This document shows positions 1,111 to 2,236 of a DNA stretch of 64,000 nt, piece by piece. This stretch comes from Hymenobacter sp. BT559. Lineage in GTDB: Bacteria > Bacteroidota > Bacteroidia > Cytophagales > Hymenobacteraceae. The translations under genes and the position numbers were made by a program. The stretch covers positions 1,488,001 through 1,552,000 of the forward strand of contig NZ_JAELXV010000001.1 of NCBI RefSeq assembly GCF_016427535.1, written 5' to 3'. The notes beneath the pieces are model-generated. The model searched no databases, had not been told where the DNA came from, and saw only the letters and a program-made list of their open reading frames with translations. Each line of letters opens with the position of its first letter. Within the stretch, counting starts at the first letter, position 1.

Positions 1111-1155
1111 CTCCTAGGGCAAATAGTTTCGGTTTGGTAGGGGCTATTAACAAAA

Positions 1156-1189
1156 AACAGCGTCTTTTCCGGGCGGAAAAGACGCTGTT
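1156..1189. terminator. hairpin between two minus-strand genes
   Basis: A perfect 15-bp stem (1156-1170 with 1175-1189) with a 4-base loop. A-rich sequence on its left makes a T-run for the minus strand, so it fits as the terminator of the DUF2147 gene that ends at 1210. Confidence 0.75.
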
Positions 1190-1209
1190 CTAAAAGAATC
1201 GTTTTACGG

Positions 1210-1859: not shown

Positions 1860-1889
1860 TTTGAACCTATGTCCCGGCAATTAACTTTA
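1860..1889 (+). promoter_or_regulatory. Bacteroidota-type promoter for the putative RNA
   Basis: TTTG at 1860-1863, 18 bases, then TAACTTTA at 1882-1889, which matches TAnnTTTG in all but the last base. The predicted transcription start is near 1896, just before the first hairpin of the structured region. It faces away from the DUF2147 gene. Confidence 0.5.
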
Positions 1890-1986
1890 CCTATCAGTAG
1901 CGAGTGCTACGGCCCCCTTCAAGCAGCCCTAAGGTGCTGGGAAGCGCGATGGGGGTTATGTCGAACGTAAAGAAAGGAGGTACAAA

Positions 1987-2058
1987 ATGTCTAGTAGTCC
2001 CAACCAAATCCTGCCGAGCCTGTCCAATGTAGTACGCGTCACCGCCGTACTCGCCTAA
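1987..2058 (+). CDS. 23-codon ORF with perfect SD inside the structured RNA
   Basis: ATG at 1987 lies 7 bases after AGGAGG (1975-1980 region, AAAGAAAGGAGG), an SD far better than any other in this window. The predicted peptide starts MSSSPNQILP, ends VRVTAVLA and stops with TAA at 2056-2058. The long-range stem and the 2031-2036/2046-2051 hairpin fall within its codons, so translation and RNA folding would compete. It could be a leader peptide, a small protein or a dual-function RNA. No homologue is recognised. Confidence 0.4.
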   Translation: MSSSPNQILPSLSNVVRVTAVLA

Positions 2059-2174
2059 TACACAGCTCGGCGGAGGGCACTGCGGTATCGCGGCTCCCTT
2101 TCGTTGGACAGGTCTTACTGTGAGACGTCGGCGCTGTACCCCAGCGAAGCCGCTCGGTAAGATTTGAAGGATTA

Positions 2175-2236
2175 GATGCCTGGTTGGCCCGATGGCGTTC
2201 GCAAGAACGCCGGGGCCGACCGGGCATCGCTTTTTT
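2175..2236 (+). terminator. strong intrinsic terminator of the putative RNA
   Basis: A stem of 16 pairs (2175-2190 with 2213-2228, two G-U) continues into 7 pairs (2194-2200 with 2205-2211) closed by a GCAA loop and followed by six T at 2231-2236. It is oriented for plus-strand transcription, where no protein gene ends. Confidence 0.8.

Follow-up and report, generated by a model that had tools for sequence, protein, structure and literature searches.

Positions 1860 to 2236 of the window (the whole 64-kb stretch of DNA that was analyzed) encode a predicted stand-alone RNA which, as judged by sequence comparison, belongs to a genuine and widely distributed RNA class of soil and water bacteria, found in Cytophagales and in some of their relatives. 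In the genus Hymenobacter, the one extended Shine-Dalgarno (SD) motif of the genome sits on this RNA, and a ribosome using it would have to unfold a conserved structure. The RNA class, its structure, the strength of its SD, the occurrence of one such SD per genome in the genus, and the absence of such an SD from rpsU were established by computation. There is a strong hint that the RNA functions in the docking of ribosomes with a free 16S 3' tail, coupled to opening of the fold, and we infer the mechanism beyond docking as set out below.

Organization and genomic setting of the RNA

The element is flanked by a DUF2147 gene, which is divergent, on one side and by an NlpC/P60 gene, which is convergent, on the other; its features are as follows.

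1860 to 1867, + strand: TTTGAACC, which we take to be the -33 element of a Bacteroidetes-type promoter; conserved in a 62-copy genus alignment
1882 to 1889, + strand: -7 element TAACTTTA, conserved in the genus alignment; predicted transcript start near 1894
1897 to 1910, + strand: 5' hairpin GTAGC-GAGT-GCTAC (MFE fold); stem kept in congeners and, by reading, also in other genera
1911 to 1957, + strand: second 5' hairpin region, more variable, with a conserved CCTAAGGT (MFE fold, alignment)
1971 to 1981, + strand: extended SD AGAAAGGAGGT, a perfect 11-nt complement of the 16S 3' tail ACCUCCUUUCU
1987 to 2058, + strand: mini-ORF of 23 codons plus TAA, MSSSPNQILPSLSNVVRVTAVLA, open in 78 of 78 distinct copies
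1996 to 2000, + strand: 5' strand of helix P0, AGTCC, inside codons 4 and 5; pairs with 2169 to 2173 in the MFE fold
2005 to 2019, + strand: 5' strand of the long-range stem P1, inside the ORF; both-side changes in 6 of 12 pairs (covariation)
2020 to 2151, + strand: internal helices of the domain, lineage variable (MFE fold; helices 2 and 3 of the covariation test)
2152 to 2166, + strand: 3' strand of P1 (MFE fold, covariation)
2169 to 2173, + strand: 3' strand of P0, GGATT, immediately 5' of the terminator; kept in Cytophagales copies
2175 to 2236, + strand: intrinsic terminator with a GCAA loop and a T run (CTTTTTT) (MFE fold, sequence)

Several of these parts had been named in a first-pass annotation and are present as described, namely, the TTTG at 1860 to 1863, TAACTTTA at 1882 to 1889, the hairpin at 1897 to 1910, the ATG at 1987, the stop codon at 2056 to 2058, and a terminator hairpin whose GCAA loop and subsequent CTTTTTT can be seen in the sequence. 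Two others needed revision: the 15-bp stem formed by 2005 to 2019 and 2152 to 2166 exists, with one mismatch and as part of a larger domain, and the SD, given as AGGAGG at 1975 to 1980, is there but belongs to a longer one, AGAAAGGAGGT, at 1971 to 1981. In the 62-copy genus alignment, conservation is among the highest at the promoter pair, at the start region, and along the 3' arm. For comparison, PMC9723704 gives TAnnTTTG at -12 to -5 as the sigma-A box of F. psychrophilum. A sigma-70 promoter scan found no promoter, which is the expected result for this phylum; a terminator scan did not list the GCAA-loop hairpin, and the U run is interrupted in some congeners (e.g., CATCGCTTCGTTT).

Two other structures occur close by. 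Immediately past the terminator, at 2239 to 2314, is a near-perfect inverted repeat (AATGAGCAATTGGCAATGAACAATG ...), for which 32 of 37 matching rows (E ≤ 1, both strands counted) are copies in the same genome or the repeat itself and for which weak Rfam microRNA matches are surely accidental. On the minus strand, behind the DUF2147 gene, a strong terminator-like hairpin of 17 bp lies at window positions 1154 to 1191.

Across the family, the upstream neighbor is a divergent DUF2147 gene at 94 of 94 loci, and the downstream neighbor is NlpC, convergent at all 91 of the 94 loci where it was found; additional genes intervene at some loci, and at the g34 loci a different gene stands before NlpC, the next gene being convergent. 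The block DUF2147-RNA-NlpC is retained in every sampled genus of the family, for which vertical descent and a functional tie are both possible explanations. Outside the family, DUF2147 and NlpC are near the RNA at 0 of 40 loci, and the nearest downstream frame, as reported by a naive caller, is mixed in kind and strand (17 plus, 13 minus). No conserved co-directional downstream gene was seen among the family loci or the 40 outside loci. Because the neighbors differ outside the family, we consider that the RNA stands alone and that it, and not a neighbor, is the conserved unit. At the sequence level, the element has a conserved promoter-like pair and a terminator hairpin without a conserved co-directional neighbor, and it is predicted to be transcribed; the earlier suggestion, made from the gene layout, that it forms its own transcript agrees with the convergent NlpC and with the absence of both neighbors outside the family.

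The same neighborhoods bear on the idea that the element is an attenuator or the leader of a neighboring gene. Leader-peptide attenuators do have a comparable layout, with a short ORF behind an SD and then hairpins and a terminator, but the next gene is convergent in the family and the downstream frame varies in kind and direction elsewhere. We therefore reject this reading, which is exceedingly improbable; an attenuator without a downstream gene had been one of three options in the first-pass annotation, and it proved the weakest of them.

By BLAST, the RNA was found in all 61 genus genomes (the source genome and 60 others), in a single copy except in one (G060), and 3 of 38 other-family genomes share only the core around the SD. 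The two copies in G060 are mirror images equidistant from the ends of one contig (C110) and probably reflect an assembly palindrome. A covariance model built from 32 copies (R1) was run on 390 genomes of the order and matched 91; we accepted 88 of these as real (79 of 79 in the family, 7 of 8 in f5, 1 of 1 in f17, and 1 of 10 in f20); matches in G150, G163, and G424 and a second match in G230 (L231 to L234) were judged upon reading to be due to chance. No R1 match was obtained in about three-quarters of the genomes sampled from the order. When the species collection was scanned with an exact pattern, 29 loci emerged, some of them in genomes already counted, including loci in Chryseolinea, Ohtaekwangia, Chryseosolibacter, Dawidia, Cesiribacter, Nafulsella, and Xanthocytophaga. 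Among 395 genomes sampled across the whole class, R1 matched 8, of which 4 belong to the genus and 4 are distant (three from f23 and one from f51); in the four distant copies, an SD of this kind is accompanied by a short ORF and a terminator. Since strict filters were applied to large samples, weak kin may have been missed. The RNA was absent from phage and plasmid collections searched with blastn. Shortly downstream of one f23 copy, and outside the RNA, lies a cobalamin riboswitch (L278, 1191 to 1417). The first-pass annotation had left the question of homologues to a covariance search of relatives, and every sampled genome of the genus and of the family carries one.

When the window and the RNA of 18 related loci were compared with Rfam 15, no family reached the gathering cutoff, in line with the initial impression that the element matches no known RNA class. 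A permissive Rfam scan of 1700 to 2400 returned solely inverted-repeat matches and one chance-level match, ARAGORN detected no tmRNA, and the Rfam model of OLE RNA gave no match in a run of the whole library. In a literature search that covered few subscription papers, we found no title or abstract describing this RNA. The Rfam and ARAGORN results lead us to reject a known RNA class. A divergent housekeeping RNA (tmRNA, 6S, RNase P, or SRP) would suit an RNA that is family-wide and, as a rule, present once per genome, but the missing gathering-score and tmRNA matches, together with the large share of the order in which R1 is unmatched, make this hardly credible.

Extended Shine-Dalgarno sequence, fold, and mini-ORF

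A search with RF00177 found no 16S rRNA in the source genome, and the 16S 3' tail was therefore taken from relatives of the same family, ten genomes of which have GGATCACCTCCTTTCT. The duplex AGAAAGGAGGU / ACCUCCUUUCU comprises 11 nt at -17.7 kcal/mol. When the tail of the Hymenobacter family was used for all, SD:ASD pairing ranged from -16.8 to -20.3 kcal/mol in 140 of 140 distinct cores from 14 lineage groups, a constancy that is partly a selection effect, as 29 loci came from a pattern containing the SD, R1 rewards the SD, and core extraction needed an SD-like string. All 140 cores exceed the criterion of < -13 kcal/mol for rpsU autoregulation given in PMC9976891. In the 74 genus copies, which came mostly from whole-element BLAST, the SD is kept throughout. 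All 9 of 9 genus genomes contain a single match to the pattern AGAAAGGAGGT-N3-9-ATG, in every case at this RNA; a reversed control pattern had a single match in each of two of those nine genomes, and in two other-family genomes the matches to AGAAAGGAGGT-N3-9-ATG lie in or at protein genes.

The SD and the start are retained in every lineage group, in agreement with the first-pass view that the RNA has its own initiation signal; the exception is one decayed copy, L229, which was excluded from the 140 cores. In this copy, from a genome (G138) that is 75% complete, the SD is reduced to AAAGGTGC and the start and P0/P1 region remain. Among the 136 copies with a standard SD, the start, AUG or GUG, lies 3 to 5 nt past it. 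GTG takes the place of ATG in 6 of 6 g36 copies and 2 of 2 f5g5 copies, a swap that fits a start-codon role. The SD is barely more accessible than the rest of the sequence (mean unpaired, 0.44 versus 0.35 in other windows).

The 377-nt stretch has a folding energy of -165 kcal/mol, which none of 100 dinucleotide shuffles reached (z = -6.2). For the domain running from the AUG through GGATT, which leaves out the terminator, 12 genus copies were tested and gave z values between -3.9 and -6.0; some groups outside the genus show less excess stability (z of -3.7 to +0.8 in 14 copies of the Chryseolinea group and -1.1 in f17). The larger domain is closed by P0 (AGTCC at 1996 to 2000 with GGATT at 2169 to 2173), whose 5' side, [AG][AG]UCC, consists of the codons just past the start and whose partner, GGAUU, abuts the terminator. 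P0 was scored as present (at least four of five pairs) in 113 of 134 individual MFE folds (59 of 74 in the genus, 54 of 56 in other Cytophagales, and 0 of 4 in f23/f51), a count that leans toward P0, since the GGAUU end also served to delimit the domain; six mis-trimmed cores (L207, L209, L211, L219, L222, and L228) were excluded from the MFE and P0 counts. The copies scored as lacking P0 include 3 of 3 from f23, the one from f51, and 15 of 74 from the genus. In the f23 copies, the P0 strands read GTTCC / GGAAT and pair in the MFE fold of L278, incompletely in L277 and L279.

Covariation argues for the remainder of the fold. In alignment A1, 96.5% of cells are paired, and 12 of the 20 pairs in P1 and two inner helices changed on both sides. 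Shuffles gave 6.7 ± 1.3 such pairs, with 0 of 500 reaching the observed number, and slid structures gave 5 at most; the slid control flatters the result because the structure was drawn from the consensus of the same alignment. The number of further pair types was less striking (26 versus 23.1 in shuffles, with 27 of 500 shuffles reaching it). The first-pass annotation had described a structured RNA in which codons of the ORF take part in the long stem; the covariation check that it proposed gave the result above, and the 5' strand of P1 does fall within the ORF. A GGA/UCC pairing across the SD suggested by RNAalifold was dropped because its pairs never vary. For the Chryseolinea group, RNAalifold on a MAFFT alignment (A3) gave no useful structure, and individual folds were used.

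The ORF has 18 to 23 codons across the class, is open in every copy examined, and supplies the 5' arm of a domain whose closing helix begins 3 to 6 nt past the start codon (6 nt in the genus). An initiating ribosome covers about 15 nt past the AUG, so P0 and initiation would be unable to coexist. In the genus, the stop follows codon 23 in 74 of 74 distinct copies, and in the Chryseolinea group it falls at one aligned column in 17 of 21 copies, despite ORFs of 19, 21, or 22 codons. Both the fixed stop and the close spacing of SD and start suggest real translation and thus speak against an RNA whose SD holds the 16S tail of immature or idle 30S subunits (as an assembly check, in hibernation, or as a decoy), with translation of the ORF being incidental. 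Such tail binding would accord with an SD that few other parts match in constancy between lineages, with a peptide body that is not conserved, and with an ORF length similar to that expected by chance, as a chance frame after an AUG also ends about 20 codons on. On balance, we regard it as rather unlikely.

The peptide begins with MS(S/N)P, often followed by I/V-L-S, in most Cytophagales groups, and the remainder differs between genera. Third codon positions vary more than the others in Hymenobacter (permutation p = 0.012) and in g36 (p = 0.04), suggesting that the peptide may matter in those groups; no such bias was seen in g34 (p = 0.26) or the Chryseolinea group (p = 0.67), from which the test took 12 of 18 and 12 of 20 copies, respectively (one ORF length each). 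The variant codons comprise 13 silent and 16 replacing ones in Hymenobacter (8 silent expected; p = 0.036) and 5 silent versus 55 replacing ones in the Chryseolinea group (12 of 20 copies). A small mRNA or dual-function RNA, in which the peptide is the product and the structure and SD merely set its expression, would explain the silent excess and position-3 variability, the consistently open ORF, and the widespread MS(S/N)P start. However, the peptide past its first codons differs between genera, replacements dominate in the Chryseolinea group, and the shared N-terminal codons overlap the P0 and P1 strands, so that RNA pairing can explain them; this alternative seems to us unlikely. We take this pattern to mean that the peptide is probably under less selection than are initiation and the RNA.

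Relation to bS21 and possible function

According to PMC9976891, the 16S tail in Bacteroidia is hidden by bS21, bS18, and bS6, hence their failure to use SD sequences, and ribosomes lacking bS21 translate rpsU via an extended SD, which is present on rpsU in many Flavobacteriales and in only about 20% of Cytophagales. With an extended SD on rpsU defined as < -13 kcal/mol, we read the rpsU starts of 79 RNA-bearing genomes (53 from f1, 7 from f5, 1 from f17, 1 from f20, and 17 named or MAG) and compared them with a set of 62 RNA-less genomes; one of 118 rpsU starts was unreadable, as were all but three of six extra rpsU copies. From the exact-pattern scan, 19 of the 29 loci entered this comparison, L170 and L177 representing the same genomes as G152 and G126. 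Among RNA-bearing Cytophagales with a single rpsU, 0 of 76 have an extended SD on it, the strongest pairing being -9.9. Of the RNA-less genomes, 61 were readable; 27 of these carry an extended SD on rpsU (21 of 26 in f19, 3 of 3 in f22, and 3 of 8 in f11), and the other 34 have neither the RNA nor an extended SD on rpsU.

Cesiribacter, Nafulsella, and YIM B00369 have two rpsU genes each, one of which carries an extended SD (-20.9, -19.5, and -19.2, respectively); the other copy in YIM B00369 is at -12.7. Paralogue switching of bS21 is a possibility in these two-rpsU genomes (L341, L370, L344, L371, L345, and L372; Cesiribacter andamanensis, Nafulsella turpanensis, and YIM B00369). The RNA and an extended SD on rpsU occur together in two f23 genomes (G742, -16.7, and G779, -13.6), and no extended SD is found on the rpsU of a third (G722, -3.3 and -3.4) or of the f51 genome (G455, -1.3). 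With these exceptions, the RNA and the extended SD on rpsU appear to be mutually exclusive in Cytophagales, a relationship that is suggestive and falls short of statistical proof because few independent lineages are involved.

The SD of the RNA itself precedes an ORF of 18 to 23 amino acids, not bS21, and rpsU is located elsewhere. Pairing between the RNA and rpsU mRNA did not exceed chance in 24 genomes (z of -1.6 to 1.4) in a crude comparison of whole-length duplexes with simple shuffles. For a trans-acting base-pairing sRNA with a seed freed by translation, rpsU was the sole target tried. Such an sRNA would fit the strong conservation of the 3' arm and of the GGAUU strand, both of which a passing ribosome would free, but internal pairing accounts for the conserved strands, and with no signal from rpsU we consider this improbable.

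We tentatively favor the hypothesis that the stand-alone RNA is a docking and sensing device for ribosomes with a free 16S 3' tail. The extended SD would pair with an exposed tail; since the bS21 pocket holds the tail in most ribosomes of this class of bacteria, initiation at this site would be expected mainly from 30S subunits that are poor in bS21 or have an exposed tail for another reason. As P0 adjoins the start codon, beginning 3 nt (6 nt in the genus) past it, an initiating ribosome would have to open P0/P1, and elongation through the mini-ORF would then strip the 5' arm as far as the stop codon. The RNA may thus be a two-state switch, either closed or opened by a ribosome, which, where it occurs, would replace the extended SD on rpsU in reading out the level of bS21-less ribosomes. 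The freed 3' arm, a bound protein, the peptide, and ribosome sequestration are possible effectors. That the RNA acts in trans as a reader of ribosome composition, with only bS21-less 30S subunits or new ones that have yet to receive bS21 docking on it and unzipping the domain, is conceivable, if on the unlikely side.

On this last reading, the RNA would serve as the bS21 sensor in bacteria whose rpsU has no extended SD, and it may be the first stand-alone RNA that takes ribosome heterogeneity as its input. What senses missing bS21 in the other Cytophagales becomes a directly testable question, and a conserved RNA class is added that Rfam 15 does not hold.

Comparison with known systems

SgrS/SgrT and RNAIII are dual-function sRNAs, that is, stand-alone structured RNAs with a short ORF. 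The RNA described here shares that design but differs in that its ORF lies inside the closing helix and the body of its peptide drifts. In leader-peptide attenuators, passage of a ribosome over a short ORF alters the RNA fold, as it would here; unlike in those systems, the RNA has no conserved co-directional gene behind it.

The extended SD of rpsU, as described in PMC9976891, is similar in its near-complete pairing with the 16S tail (< -13 kcal/mol), in the presence of a single such motif per genome in the genus, and in an expected preference for bS21-less ribosomes. In contrast to it, the motif here sits on a stand-alone structured RNA with an ORF of 18 to 23 codons, and in Cytophagales this RNA is found mostly where rpsU has no extended SD. 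The nearest idea that we found in print is OLE RNA, which, according to PMC12054373, carries an ASD mimic that binds bS21 and is likewise a structured bacterial RNA tied to SD/ASD pairing and the bS21 site. Unlike OLE RNA, the RNA presented here bears an SD predicted to bind the ASD itself, and it is shorter and contains an ORF.
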